Position numbers and translations under genes: made by a program. Under the pieces are notes generated by a model. It saw only the letters and a list, made by a program, of their open reading frames with translations. It did not search any database and was not told the origin of the DNA. A stretch of 64,000 bases of DNA from Stomorhina lunata. Its lineage: Eukaryota; Arthropoda; Insecta; Diptera; Rhiniidae. The stretch is from the NCBI GenBank assembly GCA_933228675.1, contig OW121741.1:58818037-58882036 (forward strand), in the 5' to 3' direction. Of the stretch, positions 5,641 through 40,249 are shown piece by piece. Each line of letters opens with the position of its first letter. Within the stretch, counting starts at the first letter, position 1.

Positions 5641-6187
5641 TACACCCAGAGAAAAAACCACATGAAATCAATAAAAAAAACGCAACGAATACTAGCCAAG
5701 GTGGAAAATTGTAAATGTAACAACATCCATTGTAAAAACAAGATAGGTCCCAAATAATAATAATGGCCATTCTTAAATCAAAGATTGGCATTTTTAATTT
5801 GAACATCACCTACTTTTAATCAAAAAATATTCTACATTGTTTCCAAATATAAATATTTTAAAATCAAAGTTAAAAATGTACAAATCAACAAAGCACACCT
5901 ATATTTTAATGGTGGACGTATTAAAACCGCACTCGTTCAACGTTGAATTAATAATGCTACTGCAGTGGTACAGTGGTTCATTCTGCTCATATTTGCTTTC
6001 AAAGCTTATACTTACTTTGATGTTTTTAATTAAAAATACTGAGTAATTTAATTTTTAAAATATTTTATTGAAAGTAAATTATTAAATTCATTTTATATTA
6101 TTTTATAATTACATGTTTGGTCGAATGTAAGTCTTTTCGTTATTTACAGTATAGGAATGTATCGGAATGCTATTAAAATAATATATG

Positions 6188-6575
6188 CTAAATTAATTCA
6201 TATGATTGAAAATGTTGACAAAACTCTTTTAAAACTGTTGGAAAACACAAAATATACAAATTATTAAATGCCTTAAAATGCTGTTTTTGAGTTGCTATAA
6301 AATAATTACTTTTATATTTTGTACCTTTGTAAGTAACGTCTTTTACTGAAACTACTTTTGTGAAATCAACATTATTATTATTTGATATAATTTTTGAAAA
6401 ATAAGATTCTTTAGTAATATCTGAAATTTTATGTTTTTCAAATCATTTTCTAATAAAAAAATGTGCAAATTTAATACCCGATTTAATAGCTAAAGAGTGG
6501 AGTGGATTTATTCGAGATGTAATGTTTACTAAATATTTTTTGGCTTCTTTGTGTTTTGCTTCGAAACGCATTACC
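6188..6575 (-). pseudogene. Transposase-like gene, C-terminal end
   Basis: The frame resumes directly across the BEL insertion with VMRFEAKHKEAKKYLVNITS and runs through IKFAHFFIRK, SYFSKIISNNNNVDFTKVVS and KQHFKAFNNLYILCF to a TAG at 6188-6190. One in-frame TGA lies near 6450. The remaining ~540 bp to the left transposon end are AT-rich 3' untranslated sequence with no gene that I can support. Confidence 0.75.
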
Positions 6576-6893
6576 TGTTTGGTCATTTAACCTTAATAAA
6601 ATTTGTAATTCTATGGATTTAAATCTTTTAAATAACTGACCTTATGTCAAATTGAATTTTTAATGTCAACTGAATTTTAATGTCATTTTATCAACCATTT
6701 TGAATTTCAATAACAAAAATCCTTCTTGTATTAAACCTGAATAAAACCGGCTTTGTATTTTTTCGCTCCGACTTTTTTTTTAAAATTATTTAATAAAGAC
6801 AAGTGCCCTAATTTTTATAAATAAAAACTTTCAGTTTGCAAATATTAATTTTCGTTTGTGCAAACATTCTTTAAAAACTATTAAAGAAAAACA
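6576..6893 (+). repeat. 5' LTR of BEL element
   Basis: 318 bp, beginning tgtttggtcatttaacc and ending aaagaaaaaca. Preceded by ttacc and followed by the primer-binding site. It contains an aataaaac polyadenylation-type signal. Nearly identical to 13509-13828. Confidence 0.95.
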
Positions 6894-6896
6894 TTT

Positions 6897-6913
6897 TGGC
6901 GCCCGAGCAGGGA
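6897..6913 (+). promoter_or_regulatory. BEL primer-binding site
   Basis: tggcgcccgagcaggga starts three bases after the 5' LTR, the usual place for tRNA-primed minus-strand synthesis. It begins with TGG, matching a tRNA 3' CCA end. I cannot name the tRNA with certainty from sequence alone. Confidence 0.85.
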
Positions 6914-8369
6914 CATTGTTTTTTAAAAAATAAAAATAAAGTCGCGATTTACCAAAACCGTACTTCATTTAATAAATATTCCGTGCGTTAGTTATTATAA
7001 CAACCCGGTTAATTAATCGTTTAATAATTAAACAAAAACATCATCGACAACCATCTTCAGCCTCAGGACTTATTGTGATGCCCAGCTGCAACTGCATACT
7101 TTGCCAAAAGGAACGTCAACAAAATCCTAACCAGGTATTTAAGAGCAAATAATTTGTGTGAGACTTTGCAATTATTTTTCTTAAAACGAAAATTCAATTC
7201 AGAATTAATCTAAGCAAAAGTTTTATTCCACACGAAAAAATTATTTGTTCTTCACATCAATTTATTTACCGCCTAAGTAGTGAAACACACACACATAGTG
7301 ATATTAAAGTGATAATTTATTTAAAATTCACAACACAAAATATCATTTATAAATTGCCAAATAAAAATAAAATACACCACAAAATAAACACATTTCGCCT
7401 CCTCGCCGCAGTTTTTGCCATCACTCGTTGCTCGTTCTCTTTTTTATCCTTTCTCGCGGGTTTTCTATTAAAAAATCATTAAAAGTTTTATTAAATCGTA
7501 AAATTACTTACATTTTTCCAATATTTACATTTATCTGCTGTGCTTATTCCTTTTATTTACTTGCTTGTCAAGTTATTTTGACGTTTGTTTTAATTCATTT
7601 TCTTTATTATTCGCTAGTAATTAATACAATCGTTTACCAACACTGGGCTGATCAAACACGCAACCCAGTTAATCTTTTTGTGTGAACAGACGAGTAAAGT
7701 AAATAAACATTAAATTAACATAAATAAAAGTGAACAAATTAAATAAATAAAGTTAAAATATTGAGAAATTTTTTAATTTAAGGAAAAAGTGAGAAAGTGA
7801 TTTAATTAAATAAAGAGGTAAAATAATTATAATCGGGCGAACATTATAAAAAGTGATCGCGAGTTAAATTATAAATAATTGCTATTTATTAAGAGGCTGT
7901 GGTGATTTTTATTAAAAATAAATTATATTGTGTACCTACTTAAATCGTGCTTTGCTTGCGGTGTAACCCAGCAAACATTTTCTTGTAAATTAAAGCTTAG
8001 TTTTATTTTTTATAATATTTTCATAAAATTTATTGCAAATTTAACTGAGAATCAAGAAAATAATTATTTTTGGAATAATTAATTATATTTCGGCTTTAAT
8101 TTTACATTTATTTAGCATTTTGTACACAATTAAATTCAAATAGTTGAGACTTAATAATTTTCTGTGCTTTTAATTAGTTGTTTCTGCCATCGCATTGAAA
8201 CAGAGGTTGATCTCGGAAAATAATTTACTTATTTCTTTGTTATTACAACAAAATTCTTCGGATTCCTTGAGATCCTTCCAGAAAATTAATATTTACTAAT
8301 ACTTTTTAAGTATTATAACTAGTCTCCTATTTATATCTATTGAAAATTTAATTAAACCTCGACTACAAA
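6914..8369 (+). other. BEL untranslated leader
   Basis: About 1.45 kb of AT-rich sequence between the primer site and the gag start. It has no supported gene; the 85-codon frame at 7428 is a hydrophobic low-complexity artefact. The part at 7706-7956 recurs at 1-251, so it is a conserved part of the family. Confidence 0.7.
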
Positions 8370-11300
8370 ATGGCTGGCGGTAAGAAACAAAAAAGTTCCG
8401 CTCCTAGTCTAGAGAGTTTATATCAACAGAAAAATACAATTTTGACCAACGTTGCGAGAATTAGGCGTTCTATTAAAGAAAAAACTATTTCGTTCAATCA
8501 AAATGAATTGCAATGTCGTTTAGAAATATTAAATTCCTACATTGAAGACGCAATGGAAATCCGGTCAGAAATCGACATTTTAGATCCATCTAATGATGAA
8601 AGAGCTGATTTGGAAAATTTGTGCGTCTCTGCAAAGAGTATGCTTATGGGGTACTTAACTCCAAGAGAGCATAGTTTCGCAGAAACTACTTTCGGCTTTC
8701 AGCCTCATCATAACCGACTTCCAAATATGAAGTTGCCTAAATTCAGCGGTAAATATTCCGAATACAAAAATTTTATAAGTTTATTCGAGAGTCTGGTTGA
8801 TAGCGATCCGACTCTGACTGAGATTGAAAAATTTAATCATCTTATATCATGCCTATCAGATGAAGCTTTAGGTACGGTAAAAGCTTACCAAATAAGCGAA
8901 CAAAATTATTCCAAAGCTTTGAATAGTTTAAAAAAGGTTTACGACAATCCATGCTTGATATTTTTCGATAATATCACCAAATTGTTTGAACTTCCGGATA
9001 TGTCTAAACCATCTGCTTCAGCTTTGAGGTGCATGATCGATACGGTTTCGGCAATATATGGCTCGCTTTTGTCAATTGGTGACGATAAAGCGATTACAAA
9101 TGCCATTATTATACATTTAGTAATGACGAAAGTGGATCCAATCACTAGGTCCAAGTGGGAAGAGCAACTTAATTACGAAAAGTTGCCCTTATGGAGTGAT
9201 TGCGAGGATGCCTTGAACAAGCGATATCAACACATTTCAGCTGAAGAAGCTTCGTGTTCAAGAGCAAAACCTAATCCAAATTTATATAAGAAACCTGATA
9301 GTTTCTCAAAAAAGAAACAAAATTCGTCATTTTCATGCCAAACCGACAATCAACAACAAAATTCTAAATGCCTATTTTGTAAATCGACACAACACTACTT
9401 ATCAAACTGTCCTTCATTCGCTGCTGTACCTGTACAGCAGAGATTCGATTTCGTAAAAGGTGTTCCTGCCTGTATCAACTGTTTGAAAAAAGGACATACA
9501 GTTACTAAGTGTAAATCGTCAAAGTGTCGAGTTTGTAGTCGCTCACATCATACGTTACTGCACATTTATGCAGCAAATGAAAATACAATAAACAGTTCTG
9601 ATCCTAATCAGCCTTCAACTTCAAGAGCTTCCGTAAATCATTCGTCTTCATTGAAAGATAATGTTATTTTAGCCACAGCGTTAGTTAAAATAAGAAATAA
9701 TTCTGGACAATACGTCATAGCTAGAGCTTTATTGGATTCCGGTTCACAAATCAACTTTGTTACCGAGGAACTTTCGCAGCGACTACAACTACAAAAGGAA
9801 CAAAGAAATCTCAGTTTAACTGGCATTGGAAGAACGAATTCTTCCACCAAATACAAGGTTCAGGCAAATGTGAGATCTCGAACGAATTCCCATGAATTTT
9901 CGTCTGAATTCTGGATTCTTCGATCGATTTCCAATTACCAACCAGATCGAACGATTTCGACTTCAGGATGGAACCTGCCTTCGAATATTGAATTAGCTGA
10001 TCCATACTTTTATAAACCACAAAAGATTGATATGTTGATCGGCGCTGAGATATTCTTCGAATTATTATGCGTTGGTCAAATTAAACAAAGTCCAAACATT
10101 CCAACACTTCAAAAGACGTTACTTGGTTGGATTGTTTCTGGAAAATATAAAGAGCCAAGAGAAATTTATAGTAATTGTTGCCATTTAAGTCAAATTAAAG
10201 ATAATGACGAATCATTAGATCTTGTAGTTCGTAGATTTTGGGAATTAGAAGAAATTCCTAGAGAGGCAAATATACTTTCTATAGAACATCAAAGGTGTGA
10301 GGAACATTTTTCAAAATCTGTTCAGCGATTGCCATCCGGCAGATTCAAAGTGGCGCTACCTTTCAAAGCAGATCCAAAATTGCTGGGTCTCTCTTTTGAA
10401 ACAGCCAGAAGACGATTTTTATCATTAGAACGTCGGCTGTCAAAAGAACCACAAACGAAAGAGATGTATAACTCATTTATGAAAGAATACATTAACTTGG
10501 GACATATGTCTATTGCAGATAATAAAATCCCCAATACTCCTCATTACTTTATCCCACACCAATGTGTTCTACGACCGCAAAGTACTTCTACCAAGCTTCG
10601 TGTAGTTTTCGACGCCTCTTGCAAAACATCTACGCATCATTCGCTAAATGATCTACTAATGATCGGTCCGACGATTCAGGAAGAACTGTATTCCACGCTT
10701 ATTCGTTTCCGTATGCATAAATATGCAATAACGGCTGACATTGAGAAAATGTACCGTCAAGTCGTAATTGACGAGGCCGATAGAAATTACCAATTAATAT
10801 TATGGCGTGAAGATCAATCACAAAATATTGAAATTTATAGATTGAATACAGTGACTTATGGCACATCTTCGGCTCCATTCCTGGCAATACGATGTCTAAC
10901 ACATCTGAGCGAATTGTTCGAAAAAACGTTACCAATCGGATCTAAAATAATTAAAAGAGACTTTTACGTCGATGACTTGCTAATTGGCGCCGATTCTATT
11001 GAAGAACTCAATATTATCAGGTCCCAAGTCACAGATATTTTGCAATCGGCAGGCTTTCATTTAACTAAATGGTTTACGAATCATAACAAGCTGCCAGATT
11101 CTACTACAACAGAAAAATCATTACAAATAGATCCGGATCTCACGAAGACATTAGGCACATACTGGCGTCCAAAGAGTGATGTATTTAAATACCACTTAGA
11201 CAAGTCCTTTCAAGATTTAAGAGCGACAAAGAGAAACATATTGTCAGTTTCGGCAAGACTTTTTGACCCTCTAGGACTCTTGGGCCCTTTGGTAATAAAG

Positions 11301-13481
11301 GCTAAAGTTCTTCTTCAAGAACTATGGCTTATGAAGTTGGATTGGGATGAATCAATCCCCACGCGTTTAGATACATCTTGGGAGAGTTTCAAGTCCAATT
11401 TATTGAAAATTGATGTTATAGAAATTCCCAGATATGTTTTAACCACTTCTAAAACCAAATGTCAAATTCATGGGTTTTCTGATGCCTCAATGCGAGCGTA
11501 TGGCTGCTGCCTTTATATACGGAGTAGAGCTTCTAACAACATTTCTTGTCGGTTATTAACAGCCAAATCAAAAGTCGCTCCTCTGAAGACCAAATCTCTT
11601 CCGAGACTTGAACTATGCGCAGCCCATTTATTAGCCAAATTATGGTCTTAAATAAAACCCATGATATCGTTTGAGATAGAAAGCGTAACATTATGGACGG
11701 ATTCAGAAATAACTTTACACTGGATTCAGACTCATCCATCGACGTTGGCGACATTTGTTTCAAATCGAGTTTCTGAAATCCAAGAACTATCAGACCAAGT
11801 TACATGGCGACATGTTCCAACTAAGGATAATCCGGCCGATATAGTTTCTAGAGGCAGTTATGTCGATGAATTAATTAATTCTATTTGGTTCACAGGCCCT
11901 AGCTTTTTACTCCAAGAGAGTAACATGTGGCCAATTAACGATCATTTTAATCTGACAATCGAAGAAGAATCATTAGAAAAGCAAACGTATTTCTCGCGGT
12001 AGAGGAAACCGATAACCATATTTTGAAGGTGATTGAGACATATTCATCATATACTAAAATGATTCGAATATTCACCTATGTCTTTCGGTTTCTTGATATC
12101 GCTCGAGGACACAAGTGCCGCAATTTGGGGAAACCTGAAGCGAGAGAAATGTATTGGACGTTTCTTCACTTGGTTGAATTCTTGCAAAAAATTAATTATG
12201 CTGACGAATTGAAAAAGTTAAGCAAATCACAAATCTTGCCTTCAAATTTACAACGACTGAATCCATTTGTCCATCAATATAAAGACGAACATCGCTCGTT
12301 TTCCTACTTAGGGTCGGCGGGCGGTTGCTTAATGCACCAATTGCATACGATGCGAAATTCCCCCTCTTGATGTCAAAGAACTCGCATTTCATCACCATTT
12401 ATTTAAGACATTTGCACGTTACAAATTGTCATGCTGGCGCAAAGGCTTTAGTAGCCATCTTGCGAGACAGAATATGGTTGATAAATGCTAGAGAAGAATG
12501 TACGAAAGTAGTTCGCAAGTGTCTACATTGTTTTCGATACAAACCTAAATTAATGAATCAAATAATGGGGAATTTGCCCGCTGACAGGGTGAGAGCTCTG
12601 CGCCCATTCAAAATATGCGGCGTAGACTTTTGCGGCCCAGTTAATGTAACGCTTAAAATTCGAGGCCGTCCACCCGTAAAAATGTATATTGCTATATTTG
12701 TGTGTTTTACTTCAAAAGCTGTACATATTGAATTGGTAACTGATCTCTCTTCAAATTCTTTCATTCTTTGTCTTCAAAGGTTCATCGGCAGGAGAGGTCT
12801 ACCGGAGAAGGTTATTTCCGACAACGCGACCAACTTTGTAGGTGCCAGTCGAGAGCTAGAGGAGCTTCGACAAGCAATGGTCAACAATGCCGAAGACGTA
12901 GAACGGTACGCTGCCAACAAGGGAATCAGCTTCCAATTCATCCCACCACGAGCTCCACATTTCGGCGGACTATGGGAAGCGGCCGTCAAATCTGCCAAAG
13001 GCCTTCTCGTCAGGACAGTAGGCAAGGTTCTGTTGACCGTAGAGGAGCTACAGACGGTTCTGGTAGAGGTAGAGGCAGTCTTGAACTCCAGGCCCATCGC
13101 CCCACTCAGCAGCGATCCCAACGACGGAGAAGCGTTGACTCCAGGGCATCTGCTAATCGAGACGATCAGGACAGGCTGACGTTCTCCAGGAGATGGCGGC
13201 TTATCTGCGCACTCAAGCAGACGTTTTGGCGGTCTTGGGAGAAAGACTACGTCCGCAGCCTCCAAGTCAAAACCAAGTGGGCGGAGGCAGAAGCAGATCT
13301 CGCCGTCGGCAAGGTCGTCGTCGTTCACGAGGACAACACTCCACCGCTTCACTGGCTAACCGGCCGAGTTCTGGAGGTAATCCAAGGCGGCGATAACAAA
13401 GTGAGAGTAGCGAAGGTGAAGACTAGGAACGGCGTATTAACACGACCTATTCATAAGCTTGCCCTACTTCCAGTGAATTGA
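8370..13481 (+). pseudogene. BEL gag-pol polyprotein, four lesions
   Basis: The main frame opens at 8370 and runs 1,093 codons to a TAA at 11649-11651. Order: a coiled, charged N-terminus, a DUF1759-type gag domain (residues ~110-300, KLPKFSGKYSEYKNFISLFE), CCHC/CCHH knuckles (~345-400), an aspartic protease with ALLDSGSQ (~453), an RT with FYVDDLLIGA (~865), and RNase H with HGFSDAS (~1033). The same frame resumes after the stop to 12002. The integrase then lies in other frames: 12023-12370, 12325-13179 (zinc region, [29 protein letters not shown]) and the C-terminal DUF5641-like part to 13481. So there is one stop plus shifts near 11995, 12310 and 13165. Not functional as read. Confidence 0.93.
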
Positions 13482-13508
13482 AGACCATTGGTCCTTCAAT
13501 GGGGCCGG

Positions 13509-13828
13509 TGTTTGGTCATTTAACCTTAATAAAATTTGTAATTCTATGGATTTAATTCTTTTAAATAACTGACCTTATGTCAAATTGAATTTTTAATGTC
13601 AACTGAATTTTAATGTCATTTTATCAACCATTTTGAATTTCAATAACAAAAATCCTTCTTGTATTAAACCTGAATAAAACCGGCTTTGTATTTTTTCGCT
13701 CCGACTTTTTTTTTTTTAAATTATTTAATAAAGACAAGTGCCCTAATTTTTATAAATAAAAACTTTCAGTTTGCAAATATTAATTTTCGTTTGTGCAAAC
13801 ATTCTTTAAAAACTATTAAAGAAAAACA
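13509..13828 (+). repeat. 3' LTR of BEL element
   Basis: 320 bp, matching the 5' LTR except for a substitution near 13557 and a longer T-run near 13710. It follows a G-rich run (tcaatggggccgg) that is the likely polypurine primer, and is followed by the ttacc target copy. Confidence 0.95.
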
Positions 13829-13833
13829 TTACC

Positions 13834-15110
13834 CAAAGATATTTTAATGGGCCACATTTTTTTTATTGACATAATGTGTAAGAAAGTGATGCTTGGGTTT
13901 CAATGAACCATAGAGTTCGATATAGTTTTTATGGTGCACTTCTACTGAACTTTGAAATTCTGTCAAATCTGCAGTACTATATTTTGATTTCAGTACGAAG
14001 TCAATTATTTTTAGCAATAGGACTAAAATATGCCAGTGTTTATTTGAAGCTGGGATCATGTCTCCAATCATGTCTCCACCACACCTCTACAGCTGTCATA
14101 TTTAAGTTGAATGACCTTTATCTATCTATATTTAAAGGAGGAGAATTATTTCCAATTTCTATTTCACCCAATCGAAACAATCGTTTTCTACAATTTAAAA
14201 TAAATAAAGTTATTAACTCATCGGCTATTAATCCTTGTCAAATATTACAAATATCATAAATGCATATTCCTTCAAATAAATCGTGCAAGATGTCAAAACA
14301 AAAATTATCTGTTACATCAAAACTTTTTAAATTATTGAAAAAATACGGCAGTATCTTTTTGAATTAAAAGATTGAACAAATCCTAAAATGCTATTTATTC
14401 CCAAATTATCTCCTACTATACTCGTAACACCTAAAACAAAATAAACTTTACGTGTTGTGTTTTGAGTGGTAATTTCAATACCATTTTCTCCTAATAATTT
14501 AAGCTCTTCCACTAAATGGTAGAATGATTTTTCATTTCCGCACTCTTTTAAATTTTGACAGTAAATATGAAGGCATAGTGAGGAAGTTATAGTAACACCC
14601 ACAAATTGAATATGTGTGACTACCAAGTGCGTTGTTAATTTGAAAATCGTCAAAGAAAAGGGTGTATGGAATAACTAAGTCTGATGTAAAAAGTAGTTTT
14701 TAGATTTAAAAATTTCTCCACTTGCAAAGTTGGTTAAATCTGAGCTGATAAATGCAGTTTGGGTACACTCTAAAGTTGTATCTAACAGACCATCAATCTC
14801 AAATATTTTTTGGAATTGAAATTGCAATGGTTGAATGATAATTTCAACAGTTTTTGAAACTAAAGTAGGATTGCCGGAAGAGGTCTTTTCAGTTAATATT
14901 TTTTTAATTATAATGTTTTTCGGGTACTCATATAGACTAATGTCTTTTAAGTATTTTAAAAGCTTGTATTCAGAATGGAATTCTGAAAAAGGATATTTAA
15001 CTAAACTAAAAAGAAACTCTATATCTCTTTATACGTCACATGCTTCATGTGTTTCTAATATACTTGAAATAGCCGTTGATGCATCGGATACACTATGCTA
15101 GTCGCAAATT
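13834..15110 (-). pseudogene. Transposase-like gene, catalytic-core region
   Basis: Reading down from the TTAA at 15111, the frame is collinear with the piece ending at 29295. It holds FHSEYKLLKYLKDISLYEY, FFDDFQINNALGSHT, YFVLGVTSIVGDNLGINSIL, LHDLFEGICIYDI and, near the left end, SLKPKHHFLTHY. Frameshifts and stops fall near 15040, 14690, 14340, 14250 and 14080. One shift near 14070 is next to a small duplication of a gacatgat motif. The frame runs into the target duplication of the BEL element at 13829-13833. Confidence 0.75.
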
Positions 15111-15114
15111 TTAA

Positions 15115-15225
15115 CAAGCTGGGCACCATATTGGTAAAGCTAATTCGAGTACGCAGATTTCAGTGGCATTAGCCATTTTTCGAAGTTAGCGCTCGTATTC
15201 GCGCTCGTATTTAAAATTTGTACGC
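15115..15225 (+). repeat. Left inverted end of TTAA element
   Basis: Matches the reverse complement of 29170-29290 with scattered differences and one small indel, including the caagctgggcacc tip, a ggtaaag block and a gcgctcgtattcgcg block. The repeat grades into AT-rich interior after 15225. Confidence 0.75.
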
Positions 15226-15371
15226 TAAAGTACTATAAAAACGATGTTTCTATACTTTTTTGACCATTTTTAAATTTGAAATTTAGAAATTTTGATTAAA
15301 TATGCACATCAGTAAATTGAAAATTTTAGCGCAAATTTTTTTTCGAGATTTTTTGCAAATTTTATTTGATG

Positions 15372-16018
15372 ATTTACTGGGCCAACCTACTCTTGTTGAA
15401 GGAACTGCTGCAGTTAATGGACGTAAACTTAACGAAGTTATTAAACGATTTGATGAATATTTTACCCCACAAAAGAACATAGCAATGGAAGCGTTCAAGT
15501 TTAATTCAATTGTGCAGAAAGAGCACCAACCATATGCAGAATTTGAAACCAATCTGCGAAAGCAAATACAGCATTGCGACTTCAAATGTACTTGTGGCAT
15601 TTCATATGAAAATCGCATGCTTCGGGATCGCATAATTATTGGAATTGCTGACAAAACCTTGCAACTAAAACTTTTGAACAGCAAAGATGATCCACTTGAA
15701 ACTGTTATTGAAAAATGTAAAATAATTAAGTCAGCAAATGCAAACAAGATTATACTACAGGGTGAAGCAACAAGTGCGATGAATATCATGGATGAAAGGG
15801 TCTCCATACAAGCTATAACAAAGAAATGCTATAACTGCGGAGGCAATTTTACACCAACACATGCTCGAGTCTGTAAAGCAGTAGGCATAACCTGTTTTAA
15901 CTGTGGCCGTAAGGGCCATTTTCAGAAATTTTGTAAGCAGCCTAAAGCAACGACAGTGGGAAATCAGCAATGCAGCAAAACAAAAAACAGTAAATCAGCA
16001 AGAAGTCGACAGAAGTTT
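15372..16018 (+). pseudogene. Mag-like gag, 5' truncated
   Basis: The frame from about 15372 reads LGQPTLVEGTAAVNGRKLNE, then FDEYFTPQKNIAMEAFKFNS and ISYENRMLRDRIIIGIADK, a Mag-type gag core, then two zinc knuckles (CYNCGG...HARVCK and CFNCGRKGHFQKFC). The upstream AT-rich codons from 15302 belong to the host element, not to gag. The frame stops exactly at the TTAA (16018-16021) where a piggyBac-like element begins; it originally ran on into the protease beyond 17716. Confidence 0.85.
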
Positions 16019-16449
16019 TAACCCTTATACACTCCTTGGGTCAATTTGACCCAATTTTGTTTTTCAAACGCAAAATTTTTCCCTTAATAATTAGATATGA
16101 ACATGAAACTTTAATTTATCCATTACAGGGACGAAAATGGTATATTTAAAAGAAAATAATAAAATTAAAAATTTTCCTCCCCCCTACACATTTCAAAATA
16201 CGATTTACACACACTTAATACCCTTTGGGTCAATATGACCCAACAAGCGATATTTCAAGCTTAATTCCACTTCATAATTTTTTCCTATTGAACATAATTG
16301 AGTTCGGTTCACCTTCATTTAGAAACATCTATCAATAATTTGTTCAGTCAAATTATCAATATAATCGCTTTCATTGAATATTTTTCCTTTCATGGGCTGT
16401 TCACATATCATGTAACGGTATTTTCGCATTTCTGTTGTTCTCAAATGAT

Positions 16450-28058: not shown

Positions 28059-28135
28059 AGGAATATAAGATGTTTCACATAAGTTTACTAAATCATATGT
28101 TATGTCATTGGCAATTGGAGGGTCAGGCTGACTGT

Positions 28136-28685: not shown

Positions 28686-28706
28686 GCCCGAGCGCAAAGT
28701 TTCCAC
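28686..28706 (-). promoter_or_regulatory. Primer-binding site of antisense BEL
   Basis: On the minus strand tggaaactttgcgctcggg begins at the inner edge of the 5' LTR, starting with TGG as expected for a tRNA 3' end. The edge is fixed only by where the two LTRs stop matching. Confidence 0.6.
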
Positions 28707-29080: not shown

Positions 29081-29169
29081 AGAAGAATCATAAAGAAATG
29101 ATTAAACGATTTGACAATAAAGCACATTTTATAAAATTTCGCAAAAAAATTATTTTGCGCAAATAAAAA

Positions 29170-29290
29170 TTACCGTGTTTTTACAAATTTTAAATCGCGA
29201 ATACGAGCGCTAACTTCGAAAAACGGCTAGTGCCATTGAATACAGCCATTGAATACTTGAATTAACTTTACCACTAGGGTGCCCAGCTTG
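29170..29290 (-). repeat. Right inverted end of TTAA element
   Basis: Inverse of the left end, next to TTAA at 29291. The side facing the antisense BEL (29081-29169) is AT-rich element interior, with gcgcaaa and gcgaaatttta motifs similar to those near 15330-15350. Confidence 0.75.
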
Positions 29291-29294
29291 TTAA

Positions 29295-30956
29295 AAAAAT
29301 AAAGTGTCAAATTCGAGCACAGTGATATTAACGAAGTCATAACATTTTGACTTTCAATTACTTGTTTTCTAGACATAGAATCTTTGGCATATAAATTAAG
29401 TAATGCTTTTAGCAAATTAATTTTCAAGTTCTTTATAATATTACTAAATTGGGGATTTAAAGTACAATTTTTAAATAAATTGGGTTCTGAGCCATTAATT
29501 GTTTCCACCGATATTGTTAAAGAAGAAATAGCTTGATTTGATTTATCGTTTGATATACCTTTTGGTTTAAATGAATTATATGTTGGGTGTTCAAATGTTT
29601 CTGAAAAGATGGATAGTTTGAAAATATTTGGTTATATTTATTATGTGTACAAATAACTTTAATTAATTTTCCAGAAATAAAGTGGTAAAATTTTAAGTGA
29701 CGTACTAATAATTCGACTTCAGCGAAATCTTTTAAGCACTTGAAGCACATATGCATTTTTATTGTTGATCTAAAAGGCTACTTAGAAATGTTAAAATAGA
29801 TGTAGTTTTTGAAGATTTAATATGAAGAACTGTTGATATCTCAAACAAATTTTTGTATAAACACCCAAGATGCTTCACATGCTTAATTGTACTTAAGAGA
29901 AAATACATGAAAACTTTTGAAGCATATGTACAAACTTTCAACAAATGAAGAAAATTTAAACAACGTTTTGTCAAAATAGACGTAAAATGACTTAATTGTG
30001 TTATCGGAAGGTTCCTCAATAATTATAAATGGTTGAATTGTTATACCAATAGAATATTATTTGCTTATACGTTCTGCAATTTCAGCTTCGTAGTTATTGA
30101 TGGATATAAGCCGAAGAACAGAACTTTCCTGTGCATCGATGATTGTTATTTTCTTCTTCAGCTTTCCATCTTCAGTTTTAAAACGTGTGGATGACTGCAA
30201 AATACTAGCAAGTAGTATTGCTATTATGTAGTCTTGGGTATCTGAAAGCAAAAGTTTCTGTATAAAAATTTATTTCTACTTTAATTTCGATAATATGAAC
30301 AAGTTCATACAAATCGCATATTTTTAAAGTTATAAAAGAGTTACATAAGTTACGCAACATTTCATAGATTTTTTTGTGCAATACATAATTACCTTTGCTT
30401 TCAGTAGATTGAGCAACAGAAAGCAGCTGTATGCAGAAATGATTGTGGATGTTATCACTGAAGTATATTTTGATTTTCTCTTTAAAGCTTTCCCACTTTG
30501 TATATAACATGAATTCTTTGTCTGGGTACAAAAAATTTAAATCTATTTTAACCTAATAAAAAAAATCTATTAAAAAATGTTATAAATTCTTTCCAAATAC
30601 ACTTACAAGATCTGGAGCTCTAGAGTCTGAATATTTAGACCAATCCTTTAAAAACTCCGTATTGCATACTTCTTGCCAATTGGAGCTATCTCTATTAAGA
30701 TACCTTTTTAAAGCTAAAGCAATGGATTCATTTATTTCTACACCTTGATTTATTTTTGTAACAGGTTGTTCTGCCTTTTTTATACGTTTACATCGAACAT
30801 TATTGTATTTAGAATATAACTTGCCGCTAGGATTTTTTTTCCCTTGGCGTCCAATAAAATAATATTCCTTATAAATATTGAAAAATTATTATATTTGTTT
30901 ATTATTCAAAATTAATTACGTTACCTTTGCTACTGCTTCGCTATTGAAAATCTGGC
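29295..30956 (-). pseudogene. Transposase-like gene, central exons and zinc finger
   Basis: This piece lies between the gypsy insertion and the TTAA-flanked element. It holds the rest of the exon ending at 30925, an exon at 30867-30607 (RYLNRDSSNWQEVCNTEFLK) with a clean GTAAGT donor, an exon at 30552-30393 (YPDKEFMLYTKWESFKEKI), and a long exon from 30241 down. The long exon carries YIIAILLASILQSSTR, FYVYFDKTLFKF and a C2H2 finger (C-X2-C-X12-H-X4-H, 29750-29680) with a half-lost second finger. The donor and acceptor phases agree across 30601/30552 and 30393/30241, which supports a real spliced gene. Stops in the ~29.85-kb part show decay. Confidence 0.75.
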
Positions 30957-30960
30957 ATAT

Positions 30961-31528
30961 TGTAGTGTACCTATGCTTGGTATACTGTAGTGTACCTAAG
31001 CCAGGCACACTGTTTTATATTATAATAAATGCTTAGTTCATAAAACTAAATAATTTTGTTACTGCATTAAACTTCTATGCAGTCGCTGCATACAAATACA
31101 AGCTGAGCTGAGTATGACAAATTAGCTGCTGATCGTTTTGGTGTATTGAGTGATTCTGACCAATTCCACTCAAATTATCCAAAACGACATTGAATTGAAG
31201 TGATTGGTCAACTCCTCAAGTTGAATATATAACTTATGAACTAAGTATGTAGACATAATTTAGAGTAAGATAGAATAATTTTAATTAAGATAATAATGAG
31301 TAATTTTAATTAAGAATTTTATATAAAAAGGGACGCGAGCCCACAATAAAGGCAGAATTAATATATATTTCAATACGACTTGTTTTAATTCTTTCAAAAG
31401 GGCATTTTGATGCTCGTAACAATATCGCCAGGTGCTAAGATAATACCAAAACTTCAAATCTATTACAATACAAAGGACCCCTAACAAACGTCATTCAGAT
31501 CCTACCTTACCTTTACCATACCTTTACA
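30961..31528 (+). repeat. 5' LTR of mdg1-like gypsy
   Basis: 568 bp, TG to CA. A duplicated tgtagtgtacctа-type head occurs at 30961 and 30986. A TATA-like box (tttatataaaaaggga) lies near 31319, followed by cacaataaaggc. Flanked by atat on the left and the primer site on the right. Confidence 0.93.
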
Positions 31529-31547
31529 TGGCGATCCTGCCCAACTG
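31529..31547 (+). promoter_or_regulatory. Gypsy primer-binding site
   Basis: tggcgatcctgcccaactg begins immediately after the 5' LTR. TGG matches a tRNA 3' CCA end, and direct contact with the LTR is typical for this position. Confidence 0.8.
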
Positions 31548-31585
31548 AATCTCAAAATCATTTTTTTTCACATTTAGAACTTTTA

Positions 31586-31840
31586 ATGATTTCCCAAGAA
31601 GAAATTGATGCTACCTTCAAGAAATGGGAAGAATATGTTCCAACAACTGAAGTTGCAATAGAGACACGTATATACACCCCGACACCGATATCTGCGGGAC
31701 CAAAGCCCCTCACCATAGAAGAATATAGAAAAAGGCAAACTAGAAACAACAAAGAAGAATATAAGACAACAATTTCAATTTCAAGAAACGAGGTAGGAAG
31801 CGACGTTTCCAGAAGAACTGTGATGACCTCCAAAGAATAA
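31586..31840 (+). CDS. Small leader frame of gypsy, unknown function
   Basis: An 84-codon frame starting MISQEEIDATFKKWEEYVPT, mostly charged and proline-containing, with KPLTIEEYRKRQ in the middle. It lies between the primer site and gag in the same strand. I do not recognise its fold. It could be a small accessory or leader protein of the element or the remnant of an upstream gag part. Homopolymer A and G runs at 31922-31952 separate it from gag. Confidence 0.45.
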   Translation: MISQEEIDATFKKWEEYVPTTEVAIETRIYTPTPISAGPKPLTIEEYRKRQTRNNKEEYKTTISISRNEVGSDVSRRTVMTSKE

Positions 31841-32253
31841 TAAATATTAGTAAAGGAGAACAAAAAAGAGAACTAATTAATAAAATAAAAACTCTGAGAA
31901 AAGGGATGGAAAGAGCTTAATTAAAAAAAAAAAAAAAAAAAGATGGGGGGGGGGTAATCAAAGCAAAGTAGAAATAGATGAAAAAACCATCAACAACCAC
32001 CAATCAACAGGTCTTCATAATATGGTTCCAGAATTTTTAATTACATTAATAATTGTAGTAATTTTTTTATACGCTGCGCATAAAGTCAGTACATATTTTA
32101 AAAATTATGTAAGAAAATATATGACAAGACAAATTACAAATTCAATTTCAGAAGTATGACAAAAACATATATATAAAATATTTTAGAAACATAAACGTAT
32201 GTATAGAATAAGAAATTAAAATAAAACTTTTACATAAGATAAACAAAATTTTA

Positions 32254-33285
32254 ATGGAATGGAAAAAGATTTTAGAACACTGTAGACTAGTAAAAGAAAA
32301 ATTTGACAGGTCATATAAATGTTTAAATATAGATAGACCGACGGGTAAAGAAACTGTTGAAAAAAACTTAGACATTATTATAAATTGCTTAGAAGAAATT
32401 AGAACAGTTCTCAACGTATATTATGACCGTTTTACTCCTTCACACAAAACAGCAGCAGAAGCATTTTTCTTTGACCTTAGGAGTAAAACACTAACATTAG
32501 CAGAAAAGAAAAACCTAGATATTACAATTCCTGAAACTATACATGAAAAGATAGAAATTAAATCGTCTACTTTACTTAAACAAGAAACAGAAGAAAAGAA
32601 AAACCTAGATATTACAATTCCTGAAACTATACATGAAAAGATAAAAATTAAATCATCTACTTTACCTAAACCAGAAACAGAAGAAATATTAAAAATGGCA
32701 TCTTTCAATTTAGAGAGTGTAGCAAAAACTCTACCTCTATTTACAGGAAACTACATAGAACTTGAGAGTTTTATCATTACTGCGGAACTTATTAACAAAA
32801 CTTTAAACGAAACAGGCAAAACTGATTTCTTACAATACACATACCATGTTAAACTAACTTCAAACGTGAAAACCGCATTAGGCAACCTCACTCCTATAAG
32901 CAATTTTGAAACATTAAAAAATTTACTAAAAATCAGATATAAGTGTCGAAAAACTATACCCGAACTACAAAATAAACTATTACAATTCAATCAAAAAAAC
33001 CTGACGGTAAACTCATATAGAGATAGATTGTCAAAAATAATTGAAAATCTAAATAAATTAGGAATTGATGCCCTAGGAGAGTCTGCGACAGAAGCAGAAA
33101 AAAATGTGATTATAAAAACGAACAATAGATTAGCCCTTGATGCATTTAAAAGAGATATAAATGAGAACTTCAAGCCAATGTTGTACGCATCACGACCTAA
33201 AACATTAGAACTTGCGCAAGATTTAAAAAATGAAGAAAAAGCTAATATAAGCACAGTCACGCATTATAGAAAAAAAAAACAGTAA
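32254..33285 (+). CDS. Gypsy gag, mdg1-type
   Basis: A 343-codon frame with an N-terminal helical part (MEWKKILEHCRLVKEKFDRS), a tandem repeat (EKKNLDITIPETIHEKI twice, residues ~84-143, DNA period 90 bp at 32503 and 32593) and the capsid core (LPLFTGNYIELESFIITAEL, LLKIRYKCRKTIPELQNKL, AFKRDINENFKPMLYASRPK). The C-terminal Asn/Arg-rich tail continues out of frame at 33286-33344 and after the MITE at about 34340-34570. No CCHC knuckle is visible. The capsid frame itself looks intact. Confidence 0.85.
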   Translation: MEWKKILEHCRLVKEKFDRSYKCLNIDRPTGKETVEKNLDIIINCLEEIRTVLNVYYDRFTPSHKTAAEAFFFDLRSKTLTLAEKKNLDITIPETIHEKIEIKSSTLLKQETEEKKNLDITIPETIHEKIKIKSSTLPKPETEEILKMASFNLESVAKTLPLFTGNYIELESFIITAELINKTLNETGKTDFLQYTYHVKLTSNVKTALGNLTPISNFETLKNLLKIRYKCRKTIPELQNKLLQFNQKNLTVNSYRDRLSKIIENLNKLGIDALGESATEAEKNVIIKTNNRLALDAFKRDINENFKPMLYASRPKTLELAQDLKNEEKANISTVTHYRKKKQ

Positions 33286-33344
33286 CAATTCACAAAATCA
33301 AAATAATAGGAATTTTAACACATATAGAAATAATGACTTTAATT

Positions 33345-34322
33345 CATTGATGGACATTTCATCAAACAATTGTTTGCAAGCAACGCCTCCTTTTTCTTAT
33401 GCTCTTTAGTTAAGCCGTTATTTTGATCAAATTTTGTTGTTTTTTCTTCCAGATACACTGCGAGATGTTGTGATGTTATATGAGATTATTTTTATGCTAA
33501 TTATTTAATTCAGTTTTTATATAAAAAAAATCAGTTTTTCAATAAAAAAATCAGTTTTTCTATGGAAAAAAAGTTGTTCTGTGCAAACAATAAGTTTTTC
33601 TATAGAAAGAATATGTTTTTCTGTAGAAGTTAAGTTAGAAGATAAGTTTTCTATAGAAAAAAAGTTTTTCTATAGAAGTAACAGTAATTTTATTTTTTTT
33701 TTATAGAAAAAGTAATTTTTTCTATAGAAAAGTAAGTTTTTCCATAGAAAAGTAATTTTTTCTATAGAAAAGTAATTTTTTCTATAGAAAAGTAATTTTT
33801 TCTGTAGAAAAAGTAATTTTTTCTATAGAAAAATCAATTTTTTCTATAGAAAAAGTAATTTTTTCTATAATAAAAGTAATTTTTTCTATAGAAAAATCAA
33901 TTTTTTCTATAGAAAAAGTAATTTTTTCTATAATAAAAGTAATTTTTTCTATATTAAAATTAATTTTTTCTATAGAAAAGTAATTTTTTTATACAAAAAG
34001 TAATTTTTTCTATAGAAAAAGTAATTTGTTCTATAGAAAAAGTATTTTTTTTATTTATAAGAAAAAGTATATTTTCTTATAATAATATAAGATATCTATA
34101 GAAAGATACATTTTTTCTATAGAAAACAAATAATTAATATTTGTTTACTAAAAATAACAAAAAAAAGTACAATACTCCTCCTCATGTTCATTCCTCGCTG
34201 GTTCGGCGGTAACTGAAATAAAACAGAAATAAACAACCAAATTTATAACGATTCGTGCTTCTGCCAGTGTATCCTCTCTTTCGCTCACAAATACAATCAC
34301 ATTTTCTTTTTGTCCATCAATG
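33345..34322. mobile_element. MITE-like element packed with tttctatagaaa repeats
   Basis: Ends are a 12-bp perfect inverted repeat: cattgatggaca at 33345-33356 and its inverse at 34311-34322. Flanks ctttaatt and ttttaatt form a near-perfect 8-bp duplication, as hAT elements make. The middle (33490-34140) is an array of about 20-bp units built on the palindrome ttttctatagaaaa. It interrupts gypsy between capsid and protease. No coding capacity. Confidence 0.75.
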
Positions 34323-34639
34323 TTTTAATTAAAATAACGATAATTATAACAACAGAAGCAGAGACGTAAGCAGATATATTAACAATCATAATAGAATAAT
34401 AATAATAGAAGTAATACTAATAATAATAATAACATATACAATAACAATAATAGCAGATATAATTCCAATAACAGAAATAATTATTTCCGAAATAACCAGA
34501 ACAGATATAATTCCAATAAAAGGAATAATAATTTCAGAAATGACCACAACAGAAGAAATGTATACGCAATATAAAATCAGGGAAACGGGATAGGCTTGGA
34601 ACACGAGGATGTTCCGAACAGCCAAATCTAAAAGTTCAA

Positions 34640-35144
34640 AAGATTTCAGATAATAATCCTAACTACATAGAATTCGACTATAGGAAGACTAAATTAATTT
34701 TTCTAATTGACACAGGTGCAGATACTTTGTCGAAAAAATGACGTTTTCGTTGGAGAAGAATTTTATCCAGAAGAAAAATGCAAATTGACAGGAATTACAA
34801 ATAAAGAAATTCAATCAATAGGGACAATAGACTTAAAATTACGTCTGGCAGAAGATAATCTTATACATACATTTCAACTTGTTGAAAAAACTTTCCCAAT
34901 AGACACTAATGGAATAATAGGAAGAGATTTTCTACAAAAATACTTGTGTAAAATTGACTACGAGACATTCACAATAACATTATTTATAAACAATAATAAT
35001 CTGACTATTCCTCTACAAACAAAATCACTTGGCACCATACGTATAAAAATACCACCCAAAATCGAGATCATTCAACCCATAAAACTAAACTTAAGCGAAG
35101 ACAGTTTAATTTTAAATAATGAATTAAAAACGGCATTTTCTTAA
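34640..35144 (+). pseudogene. Gypsy protease
   Basis: The active-site segment LIFLIDTGAD lies near 34697-34726 in one frame; a shift at about 34730 leads into the 34707-35144 frame with FYPEEKCKLTGITNKEI and IIGRDFLQKYLCKIDYETFT, the flap and C-terminal half of an mdg1-type protease. The single-base shift just after the catalytic aspartate would inactivate it. A stop at 35142 precedes the RT frame. Confidence 0.8.
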
Positions 35145-36412
35145 GTAATTCAATAGCACCTAAAAACGGCATAACACATATAAAAATTTTAAATACAACG
35201 AACTCTTCCGTAACACTAACAGAGGTTCCAATTAAAACTGACCCACTTAAAAATTATGCAATATTATATTACAAAGAAAATAATGATGACGAACGTTTTA
35301 AACAAATTTTAAAAGAAATACAAATTGACGGCAACGATAAAAATGCAAAGTCCACACTTATGAACATTTTCAAAAAATATCAAAATGTATTTCACCTGGA
35401 AAGCGAAAAATTAACCGTCAACAATTTTTATACACAAAATATAGCACTTTCAGACAATACACCTACATACATAAAAAACTATAGACTTCCGCATTCACAT
35501 ACAGAAGTAATAAATGACCAAGTACAAAAAATGCTTAATGAGAACATAATAGAACCATCAGTAAGTCCTTGTAATGCCCCTTTACTCTTAGTTCCTAAAA
35601 AGAACACGGAAGATAAAAAGAAATGGAGACTAGTAGTTGACTTTAGAAAATTGAATGACAAAATTGTTAATGACAAGTTCCCACTCACAAGACTAGAAGA
35701 CGTACTGGACAAACTTGGTAGAGCAAAATGGTTTTCAACCTTGGATATGACTAACTCATTCCATCAAATTAAACTTGACAAAGAATCAAGACCATTAACA
35801 GCATTTTCTACACAAAATGGACATTACCAATTCAAGAGACTACCTTTTGGTTTAAAAATATCTTCCAATAGCTTTCAACGTATGTTAACTGTAGCGCTTG
35901 CTGGTCTAGATTTCGAAGCCTTTTTATATGTCGATGACATAATTGTTTATGGCTGTAGCTTAAACCACCACAATGAGAATCTCATTAAAGTACTTGATAG
36001 GTTACAACGATACAATCTGAAGCTTAATCCAAAGAAATGTTGTTTCCTCCGACCAGAAGTTGTATATTTAGGACATCTTATAACTAAGGACGGAATAAAA
36101 ACTGACCCTTCTAAACATAACATTATAAATAATTACCCTGTACCCAAAAATACAGATGACGTCAGACGATTCGTCGCTTTTTGCAACTATTATAGAAAGT
36201 TCATGCCAAACTTTGCTGACATTGCAAAATGCTTAAACACACTATTAAAAAAGAACATAAAATTTGAATGGACTATCGAATGCCAGAATGCTTTTGAAAT
36301 GCTGAAAGAAAAATTAATTAGTCCACCGATATTACAATACCCGACTTTGAAAAAACATTTATATTAACGACAGACGATTCACAATTTGCATTAGGCGCAA
36401 TTTTATCACAAG
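35145..36412 (+). pseudogene. Gypsy reverse transcriptase
   Basis: The frame from 35360 reads HTEVINDQVQKMLNENIIEP, then KKWRLVVDFRKLNDK, WFSTLDMTNSFHQIKLDKES, LPFGLKISSNSFQRML and FLYVDDIIVYG (~35925), then the thumb (VYLGHLITKDGIKTDPSKHN). This is a full RT domain with both aspartate motifs present. Frameshifts near 35140-35360 upstream and near 36345 downstream separate it from its neighbours; the start of RNase H (TDDSQFALGAILSQG) lies in another frame at about 36367-36412. Confidence 0.88.
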
Positions 36413-37960
36413 GTGAAATTGGTCAAGATTTACCAAATTTCTTATGCTAGTAAGTCTTTACAAAAACATGACATAAACAAACCAATCATAGAAAAAGAAT
36501 TGTTAGCGATACATTGGGGAATAAACTTTTTCAAACCATATTTATATGGTAGGAAATTCGTAGTAGTAACTGACCATAGACCTTTAATTTCTTTGTTTTC
36601 ACATAGGAATCCATCCTCAAAAATGACGAGAATTAGGCTAGATTTATGTGATTACGATTTCACAATCATTTACAAAAAAGGTAAAATGAATACAAATGCA
36701 GACGCATTATCTAGAATACAAATAGAATCAGATATTCTTAAACATATGATACCCATCGAATATGACGAAAAACAAAAAAAGGTATTAATAACGACAAGGG
36801 CAATGACAAGAAATGAGGCAAATAAACTTAATAATAATACTGCAGTAGAAAAAGAACAAAATAACACGGAGAAACACATATCTCAGAAGCCTGATCAACT
36901 TCATATATGGGATTGCACCTCCATTAATGACGTCAAAAATATGAAAAAATTAAAATTTAGCCCTCAATTAAATTTAGTAATATATAATACCCCAACAAAA
37001 ATATCTGACAGTATATTACAATACAAATTAATAGATGAATTCCATAGAACGTCACATTCTATGAGTAGTATGGTAAAGAAATTTGTGTCATATTGCGACA
37101 ATTGTAACAAAAATAAACAGACAAAACACATTAAAGAACCACTTACCTAAACAACAACACCAGACAACAGTTTTCAGGTGATTTCAATTGACACTGTAGG
37201 ACCGTTACGCATATCAAACGGTTACCGCTATATACTAACAATGCAATGTGAACTAACAAAATTTGTTATTGCACACCCAATGCAAACAAAAGATGCGGTT
37301 ACCACACTAAAACACTTGTAGAACAATTTATCCTAAAATATGGACAATTTAAGGTATTGAAATCTGACAAAGGGACAGAATTTATTAATGAATTGATGAC
37401 AAACATTTGTAAATTACTTTAGATAAAACAAATATTTTCAACCCCTTATCACCATGAAACACTTGGTAGTGTAGAAAGAAATCATAGAGTTTTGAATGAA
37501 TTTCTGTTAACAACAGCAAATAATGAGGAATGGGACACTTGGATTCCATACTTCACTTTCGCTTATAATACAGCTCCTCATATTGATACTGGCTATTCAC
37601 CCTATGAGTTAGTTATGGGAAATTACCATACTTGCCATCAGTTAATATTTCCAACCAAACAATTAGAATTTAGAACTATTATGACTACGTAAACGAGCTA
37701 CGAGTCAGATTACAATTCGCTCTAAATAGAGCAAAAGAAATGACAATTAAAGAAAAGAAAAAAGAACAAATAACAGCAATTATGATAATAGACTTAAGTT
37801 AGATATAGGAGATTTAGTTCTAGTGAAGATAGAGAATAGAAAGAAAAATCAAAGCCCGTATAAAGGACCATATAAAATTATAAGTAGGAATGGTGTAAAC
37901 ACTACGTTAGATTATAATGGAATTGAAAAATAATTCCATAACAATATGCTATAACCATAT
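36413..37960 (+). pseudogene. Gypsy RNase H and integrase
   Basis: RNase H continues in the frame at 36413 (IIEKELLAIHWGINFFKPYL, VVTDHRPLISLF, NADALSRIQ), then the integrase zinc region (HRTSHSMSSM, CDNCNKNK near 37100). The integrase core is interrupted by stops at about 37148, 37318 and 37421, with catalytic segments VISIDTVGPLRIS (37185), LKSDKGTEF (37360) and SVERNHRVLNEFLLTTANNE (37470). The C-terminal region (37690-37930) holds LVLVKIENRKKNQSPYKGPY-like sequence. Not functional. Confidence 0.85.
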
Positions 37961-38184
37961 AAGTCAATATAATTGCTACATTTTTGTAATATAATTAAAT
38001 TTTTATTCTATAACCTAATCATGAATCATTTTATACTTTATAACTTTTTCAAAATTACAAAAATTATTTTTATACATAATTTTAATTTTTAACATACATA
38101 TATATACATAATATAAAATTACTATTGTAACTATTCATATATTTAGAAAAATTACTCCCCTAATTTTTCTCTTGAGGATAAGGG

Positions 38185-38747
38185 TGTAGTGTACCTATGC
38201 TTGGCATACTGTAGTGTACCTAAGCCAGGCACACTGTTTTATATTATAATAAATGCTTAGTTCATAAACTAAATAATTTTGTTACTGCATTGAACTGCTA
38301 TGCAGTCGCTGCATACAAATACAAGCTGAGCTGAGTATGACAAATTAGCTGCTGATCGTTTTGGTGTATTGAGTGATTCTCACCAATTCCACTCAAATTA
38401 TCCAAAACGACATTGAATGTGATTGGTCAACTCCTCAAGTTGAATATATAACTTATGAACTAAGTATGTAGACATAATTTAGAGTAAGATAGAATAATTT
38501 TAATTAAGATAATAATGAGTAATTTTAATTAAGAACTTTATATAAAAAGGGACGCGAGCCCACAATAAAGGCAGAATTAATATATATTTCAATACGACTT
38601 GTTTTAATTCTCTCAAAAGGGCATTTTGATGCTCGTAACAATATCGCCAGGTGCAAAGATAATACAAAAACTTCAAATCTATTACAATACAAAGGACCCC
38701 TAACAAACGACATTCAGATCCTACCTTACCTTTACCATACCTTTACA
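38185..38747 (+). repeat. 3' LTR of mdg1-like gypsy
   Basis: 563 bp. Preceded by the purine run gaggataaggg, the polypurine primer, and followed by the atat target copy at 38748-38751. It differs from the 5' LTR at about a dozen positions, including a 4-bp indel near 38415. Confidence 0.93.
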
Positions 38748-38751
38748 ATAT

Positions 38752-39459
38752 ATCGTTGACAATGCCTATAAAGTCACTAGGCTTAAGTGATATTTTATTA
38801 CAAACAATTTCTTCTATAATACTTATAATGTCATCACGGTTATTATCTGAAAACGTTCGTGATTGTATATATATTTCCAAGCATGATTTACCTTTTGATG
38901 TACGGTTTAATATATCTGTCAAATCCTTAAAAGTCATATAAATATTATATATAAAGTTAAAAATAAAGCAGAAATAATTACCTTATTTAGAACACGTTGT
39001 ATAGATGAATTTTAAGAAGAAGATGGTACATTTTAGTGGTCTCTGTTTAGCCAGTCTTGGACTTTATTGGAATTTGAAATGGTTTCATCGTCAATTCCAA
39101 ACTGTAATTAAATAAATAATTAAAAATATACTCTTATGGACATATGGAAACTATAAAATTCTTACTTTCTTTTTACGCCACAAAAATAATTTCTCTCTGA
39201 ATCTACAAGATCGTCTTTTTAGATATATGTATTGCAAACATCTGTATGTCACATTAACCATAGAAGTTTTAAAGACATATCCAAACGTAATTACTTACCC
39301 TGTAATATCGGCAATAGCTGCATTAGATTAAAATCACTAAGTGGCCTCATTTTTTTCATTATAAATTATTTTGGAAATTGAATCTGGAAATTGTGCTGCA
39401 TTTATTGTGATTTCATCTCCACCAACTATTATATTCCCCAGAATTTCTAAATTGTCCAT
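38752..39459 (-). pseudogene. Transposase-like gene, N-terminal exons
   Basis: Exon 1 starts at the ATG at 39459 (MDNLEILGNIIVGGDEITIN) and ends at a GTAAGT donor near 39298. A shift in an A-run separates its start from an LSDFNLMQLLPIL segment. A further short exon is likely near 39220-39165 (ERNYFCGVKRK before a GTAAG). The next exon runs about 39101-38982 (FGIDDETISNSNKVQDWLNR, with stops). The last one here begins near 38925 with DLTDILNRTSKGKSCLEIYI and runs to the mdg1-like gypsy insertion at 38751. Its frame continues on the far side of that insertion at 30956. Confidence 0.7.
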
Positions 39460-40249
39460 TCAATTAAAATAAAAATTTTAAATCGCAAACTTTTTTACCG
39501 ATCTGACTGCAGCTAACAATTTTTATTTACTTTAATTTTAAGATGGTAACATCTTGATTCCAAAAAGTGCAACTTTATTATAAGGTGATACAATTCTGAA
39601 TTAAAGTATCACGTATTTAAATCGAAAATTAACAATCTTAAATCAACATTGCGTTATTGGTATAAGCATAGATGAACATTAATTTAATGTTGCTTCACCA
39701 TGAATATATGTTTAACCACGCACATTATCAGTTCAAAGGTGCATATACATTGAATCAAAAATATACTTTGTGAATTTAAAAACATTTCCCTTTAAAATCA
39801 TATTTTAGCATTTTTAAAACCGAAGTTGAAACGTTTTTGATTTACAACTGTCACTGTAAATACAAAATTGATTAAGACACCAAAAAAGTTTGTTCTTAAC
39901 TCAATGTTGAATGTCTTCAATTAAACAAAAAAATGTTGTTTTAGAGAAAAATACAAATTTCAACAGTGTTTATCGTTCATTTAATGTGATTTTACATACT
40001 TTCGAAGCTGCTCAATGTTGGATTAACGTCGAAAACCATTAAGTTGCTAAATTTTTAATTCAACAACTATTCTCTTCAATTTTAAAATGTGACTTCTCTG
40101 GGTGTATATGTATGTATATAACAAATATTGTTTTTATGCCAATATGTTAAATATATGAGAATGAAGTTTTAGAACGTAAAAGAATATAAGCAACTTATTA
40201 AAAGAAAAATTTTTTTCATTTCATTCATTTTTAAAACCCTAGGCACAAT

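Follow-up and report, generated by a model that had tools for sequence, protein, structure and literature searches.

A Probable Two-Gene Cut-and-Paste Transposon with a Predicted RAG1-Like Transposase in the Fly Stomorhina lunata

What kind of sequence is a long, decayed coding region that lies between two short inverted repeats in the genome of the fly Stomorhina lunata? The locus occupies positions 5641 to 40106 of the window, by which we mean the whole 64-kb stretch analyzed (GenBank assembly GCA_933228675.1, contig OW121741.1, 58,818,037 to 58,882,036 of the forward strand). The original prediction, made from the letters alone, had proposed an undescribed DNA transposon behind an uncharacterized animal protein family. 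Our analysis leads to a similar answer: the feature is very probably the decayed remnant of a cut-and-paste DNA transposon with two genes, belonging to the CACTA-Mirage-Chapaev-Transib (CMCT) superclade.

Element ends, copies and target duplications

The predicted perfect inverted tips, each beside TA, were both located. The word CACCCAGAGAA has exactly two mismatch-free copies in the window, at 5643-5653 on the plus strand and at 40094-40104 on the minus strand, each adjoining TA. We annotate them as terminal inverted repeats, the left one from left ends of other copies that reach the same tip and the right one from the exact match and the right margins of other copies; the sequence and the comparison with other copies likewise mark TA at 5641-5642 and at 40105-40106 as the two copies of the target duplication. 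Each tip is the outer part of a longer margin: a non-coding one 3′ of the transposase (5643-6111), and on the right one that lies 5′ of the second gene, ORF1 (39460-40104). The left margin is shorter than the 540 bp first given, since the decayed transposase frame runs on to 6112. Taken by itself, the window gives fair, not conclusive, evidence for element ends (inverted tips, TA and shuffles). When both 1-kb margins were shuffled 500 times with dinucleotide content preserved, 77 shuffles contained an 11-bp inverted pair flanked by the same dinucleotide on its outer sides (observed, two), and three contained such a pair that also started with CA (observed, one).

Genome-wide searches were made in the 728-Mb S. 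lunata assembly, whose contigs are labeled C1, C2 and so on. The right margin gave six matches, each ending at the last tip base (6/6), and all six of these window-family copies carry the left tip at the opposite end; family copies with different ends were looked for and none was found. The six complete members are the window copy, C1:44051463-44057175 (the C1 copy), C2:75722044-75729444, C2:52097521-52116740, C11:15853002-15856400 and C11:77647216-77650649. Seven long left ends were found with the left margin; six of these have a partner among the six right ends, and one more sits in a duplication just outside the window. This tandem duplication of ~7.7 kb abuts the window start (window 1-251 and 7706-7956; C2:58815962) and repeats the left end of the transposon with 100% identity. 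Short miniature inverted-repeat transposable elements with these tips did not appear in the margin searches, in which a single short left-end fragment (C7:1087703) was the only match beyond the full left ends.

A protein search of the genome returned 60 transposase matches, with some copies represented by more than one fragment; 23 of the matches lie in stop-free frames of at least 700 codons. The best 30 were read as loci and form several subfamilies, with both ends found for four besides that of the window (G6, G7, G8 and G9). Tips of G6-G9 start CACAGA, perfect inverted repeats measure 11-14 bp over all five subfamilies, and element length ranges from 5.2 to 5.9 kb. The expectation of CAC-type tips is borne out by CACCC or CACAG starts across the subfamilies. 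Both tips could be read in 20 elements (six of the window family, ten of G9, two of G8 and one each of G6 and G7). The flanking 2 bp are identical in 20/20, for which the chance by window composition is 0.081 per element, and a 3-bp or 4-bp match occurs in 0/20. The duplicated dinucleotide is TA in 14, CA in three, TG in two and TT in one, and 19 of the 20 targets are pyrimidine-purine steps. The predicted 2-bp length of the target therefore stands, and an obligatory TA does not: the six non-TA cases make TA a preference and place the start of the tip at CAC. Left out of the 20 were subfamily G4 (L067-L070), whose 5′ end was not found and whose 3′ tip GCTCTGTG is followed by TA or CA, and two loci that have lost the 5′ tip (L084 and L078). 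Both ends were read at one of the five G6 loci, where the 5′ tip follows TA in three and is lost in two.

Copies in this genome look recently mobile. In pairwise alignments of ~4.4 kb, eleven G9 copies, spread over five contigs, share 99.7-100% identity, and one whole G9 element (C11:64403454-64408651) measures 5198 bp. The G9 5′ margin has 18 copies at least 99% identical, and in 17 the match begins exactly with the first base of the tip; of eleven of the 18 that were examined, ten have both tips, and the 5′ tip of one of these ten, L081, is CACAAA. Within the window family, two 3.4-kb copies share a deletion of nearly the whole transposase (bases 2764-5040 of the C1 copy). They are ~99.5% identical, keep ORF1 and lie in different flanks, each with its own TA repeats. 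Mobilization in trans is probable because these two nearly transposase-less copies occupy two sites, and the simplest reading would be a transposase-less derivative moved in this way. Tandem transposase copies, three in each case, were also seen at C2:58542612-58558951 (spacing 7829 bp) and C1:69308170-69329353 (spacing ~9.7 kb).

The transposase and the second gene

The transposase is a protein of ~790-815 residues with a C2H2 pair, a predicted RAG1-like Asp-Asp-Glu (DDE) core and a predicted C-terminal BAH fold. Our family set comprises 196 proteins. CxxC is present in 66/66 and HxxxH in 65/65 family proteins, and D, D and E are near-invariant; in the numbering of one homolog, P0004, the predicted catalytic triad is D282, D373 and E620. 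The structure model of P0004 has a RAG1-like catalytic fold, with 9-12% identity in structural alignments. The DDE signature, this predicted fold and the copies with the proposed element structure agree with the earlier suggestion that the family is a transposase family.

Profile searches with family proteins gave matches to tnp2/Transposase_21 (PF02992) in 3/20 proteins at E ≤ 1 and in 18/38 at E ≤ 0.1, a weak match to Plavaka (PF18759) in 5/38 members (best 1.7e-4), and weak matches to DUF4218. No model of the Kyakuja-Dileera-Zisupton (KDZ) group was among the best 25 of 31 and the best 25 of 32 matched families listed, and NCBIfam gave nothing useful for four proteins. Searches of viral and prokaryotic contigs yielded no relatives, the tip pattern had a single match in each of 44 viral stretches, and no entry of a viral structure library matched at E ≤ 0.001.

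The 'one spliced gene' first drawn from 39459 to 6188 is two genes. In the C1 copy one uninterrupted frame of 814 codons encodes the transposase; upstream of it, on the same strand, lies sequence matching a second, multi-exon gene. The ORF1 protein search found three relatives, all in flies, and for both proteins the closest relatives with a name come from flies. In Musca a single locus, LOC101889627, yields the two proteins as isoforms X1 and X3, and in Haematobia one gene model fuses both. ORF1 relatives lie on the same strand as the transposase in all five subfamilies. A weak, below-cut-off match to DUF4769 was seen in two of the three ORF1 proteins (best E 1.5e-4), and ORF1 had no good match in the PDB (best E 0.28). 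By our own by-eye reading of helices and a motif, rather than from a tool, the N-terminal part may be 'SAM-like'. ORF1 residues ~33-80 match far more often than the rest of the protein, at more than 50 places on C1, C2, C7, C10, C11 and C12, in frames of ~56 codons at 60-69% identity; this count is a lower bound, 96 of 381 candidates having been scored. The exon seems to be carried by a high-copy repeat.

Kinship and rival explanations

Published systems are compared here through the accessible parts of their descriptions. The signature of CACTA-Mirage-Chapaev (CMC) and CMCT elements, C(2)C and H(3-4)H between the second D and the last E (PMC12730594), is found in the family, and the CA..TG termini and 2-5-bp target repeats of that group appear as CAC tips with a 2-bp repeat throughout. 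Kinship had first been sought with CACTA/Mirage/Chapaev or KDZ; signature and predicted fold speak for the CACTA/Mirage/Chapaev/Transib side, and none of our results points to KDZ.

No described system fits in full. CACTA/EnSpm elements resemble the family in CAC tips, a DDE with CxxC, and the weak tnp2 and DUF4218 matches; CACTA/EnSpm in the strict sense was rejected, as the tips are CACCC or CACAG in place of CACTA and a 3-bp repeat was seen in none of the 20 elements. TRC (SmTRC1), a group of CACTA relatives from animals and fungi that is known from Schistosoma, Aedes and Tribolium, has 2-bp repeats, CxxC and DD residues and tnp2 similarity like the present family, with several proteins from alternative transcripts and a 5.2-kb element in Tribolium (PMC1636069). 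Its tips are CCC whereas ours are CAC, TRC motif I (D-G-x3-F/Y..W-P) occurs in 0/196 family proteins and box A (D-x-L/M-H-x3-L-G) in 2/196, which sets the family apart from TRC as defined in 2006; a BAH tail, predicted here, is not seen in the accessible part of its description (PMC1636069). ESTA elements, EnSpm-like and from rust fungi, share the CMCT signature and a RAG1 similarity, reported for them from HHpred; they are fungal, and the described families have a TET/JBP gene. Their 2-bp target repeat is TA, as in 14 of our 20 elements, the other six having CA, TG or TT, and the enzyme described here has C2H2 and predicted BAH modules, a comparison made by description only (PMC12730594). TransibSU and Transib have 5-bp target repeats (PMC4411706), in contrast to the 2 bp found in all 20 elements, and Transib was rejected on this ground. 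The RAG1-like catalytic fold of Transib/RAG is present as predicted by the P0004 model; Transib, ProtoRAG and RAG1 differ further in the C2H2 and predicted BAH modules of the present family and in the low identity of the structural alignments. Plavaka tips are TGT..ACA or CATCA..TGATG (PMC12730594), and this candidate was set aside for the CAC tips despite its weak profile match. Literature searches found nothing nearer than TRC, ESTA, CACTA/EnSpm, Transib/RAG and Plavaka. The string MRFEAKH had no occurrence in the literature searched; among the matches listed, BAH domain with transposase and RAG1 gave one unrelated review only, BAH did not occur in a further set of papers, and the tip word CACCCAGAGAA gave no transposon title.

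Several results weigh against a CMCT transposon. The tip alone is unspecific: it has 133 exact copies genome-wide, compared with 97 for a reversed control pattern, and 13 of the 133 belong to element copies characterized here. The remaining ~120 lie outside known copies, as would be expected were the tips mainly associated with unrelated sequence; since the control already gives 97, most are what chance would lead one to expect, and the duplication is 2 bp in every complete element. The family profile had 125 matches in the PDB at E ≤ 1, and the 60 listed all fall in the zinc-finger region, with none to RAG1 or Transib; the RAG1 link therefore rests on the predicted fold and the signature. The BAH fold of the tail comes from a single model, that of P0004. 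Matches to tnp2 are mostly at or under the Pfam cut-off (P0040, 28.5 bits versus 28.6), and a tnp2 search of the genome matched four other loci, none of this family. ORF1 follows the transposase in G6-G9 and precedes it in the window family, and its structure model is poor (predicted local distance difference test score, 40). The four tnp2 loci, near the cut-off at C10:33428209, C10:122978170, C10:42506191 and C7:71207780, could be a TRC-type lineage that shares this genome.

The alternative that survives best concerns the name, not the mechanism: the lineage may already be catalogued in Repbase or Dfam as an animal EnSpm/CACTA, which we consider a serious possibility, if somewhat short of an even chance. 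TRC (PMC1636069) and the Hydra element Spongebob_HMa/EnSpm-4N1_HM (PMC4298943) have 2-bp repeats, and CMC-EnSpm is listed in Hydra (PMC12220107), EnSpm in fish (PMC7599744) and CACTA in a gall aphid (PMC9783078). Against it, the described tips of both TRC and Spongebob begin with CCC, not CAC (PMC1636069, PMC4298943), and motif I and box A are nearly or wholly lacking in the family, which bears on TRC and not on other catalogue entries. Related TRC, EnSpm and ESTA elements are already in print, and the family is set apart from ESTA by description only; we therefore do not adopt the earlier label 'undescribed'. Our broader proposal is similarly tentative, and we would put it slightly below its negation: a distinct animal-wide branch of the RAG1/Transib/CACTA group, absent from element catalogues and active in flies until recently or even now, with a BAH reader behind the RAG1-like core, a mobile second gene, and targets set by nucleosome marks together with a pyrimidine-purine step.

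That the gene is a passenger, in an element moved by another enzyme recognizing these tips, would suit the two copies that lack nearly all of the transposase; the predicted RAG1-like fold and near-invariant triad of the encoded protein, and the fact that five diverged subfamilies each carry such a protein between matching ends, make it very improbable. Membership in the KDZ group has the earlier suggestion and no result in its favor, and appears slightly less probable still: CxxC/HxxxH, the predicted fold and the weak matches to tnp2, Plavaka and DUF4218 point to CMCT (KDZ proteins were not compared directly), and Plavaka's earlier placement near KDZ has been corrected (Kojima 2025, in the part accessible). 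A domesticated host gene between chance inverted repeats, the least probable explanation, draws on the modest shuffle statistics of the window and a fairly common tip word, and is refuted for this genome by the 60 protein matches, by the six copies that have both ends yet lie in different flanks, and by the matching 2-bp repeats of five subfamilies.

RAG1 and Transib nick outside the CAC end and form hairpins on the donor flanks. If the CMCT transposon works by analogy, its C2H2 pair and core would bind the element ends, the enzyme would nick just outside CAC, the element would perhaps be released via hairpins on the donor flanks, and the 3′ ends would be joined to the target at flexible pyrimidine-purine steps, with the joining positions on its two strands separated by 2 bp. 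The predicted BAH tail may tether the enzyme to nucleosomes, and ORF1 might, as a guess, act as a helper, perhaps an end-binding partner.

The window copy, the family and its significance

The decayed, transposase-like coding region between the tips runs on the minus strand. Its N-terminal piece (29324-29756, from similarity and C1-copy alignment) holds the C2H2 zinc-finger pair and the adjoining region. The central piece (13829-15090, from similarity) holds the first catalytic D in FFDDF and the second in GDNLG, together with HDLFEG and PKHHFLTHY. The frameshifted C-terminal piece (6112-6575, from similarity and C1-copy alignment) holds MRFEAKH, with the third catalytic residue E, and a tail corresponding to the part that folds as BAH in the model of P0004; the stop that ends the frame near 6188 is a product of decay, similarity continuing in another frame to 6112. 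A composite 14-kb insert of retroelement fragments (~15091-29323, boundaries from the C1-copy alignment), with a repeat pair at 20595-20957 and 28705-29080, interrupts the frame, as does a plus-strand Pao-type long terminal repeat (LTR) retrotransposon at 6576-13828 (end approximate; LTR matches 6576-6895 and 13509-13830) with TTACC target repeats, read by eye, at 6571-6575 and 13829-13833. ORF1, multi-exon and decayed, lies on the minus strand at 29757-39459; similarity to its relatives (P0197-P0199) begins near 39258, and the start at 39459 is an earlier prediction only. It is split by a plus-strand LTR retrotransposon with reverse transcriptase (30961 to ~38743; LTR matches 30961-31528 and 38185-38747) and probable ATAT target repeats, read by eye, within which a 21-bp repeat array (33523-34121) is open in several frames. 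With the inserts subtracted, the window copy measures ~5.2 kb, the size originally predicted. Elsewhere in the window, 54441-59294 holds 178-179-bp repeat arrays with a 553-bp inverted pair, 97% complementary.

The family had been described as common in cnidarian, aphid and fish genomes. Insects and bony fishes are indeed represented among the named matches listed for the transposase, and no cnidarian is among them. In a midpoint-rooted tree of 29 transposases (21 chosen of the 196 plus eight genome copies; 14 of 26 inner branches well supported), the window family falls among fly proteins, further S. lunata subfamilies group with other insects, and the fishes stand apart. Such a pattern is expected of an old, multi-lineage element. 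One fish member, P0078, is named 'somatostatin receptor 2' at source, an apparent misannotation.

Many animal genes now called 'uncharacterized protein' can be given the name of transposases, with consequences for the number of genes counted in fish and insects. With a RAG1-like enzyme, a 2-bp duplication and many open, near-identical copies, the family offers a natural system for studying how stagger and target are determined by RAG-type enzymes. The predicted BAH tail suggests a transposon that may read chromatin directly, in parallel to the PHD finger of RAG2.

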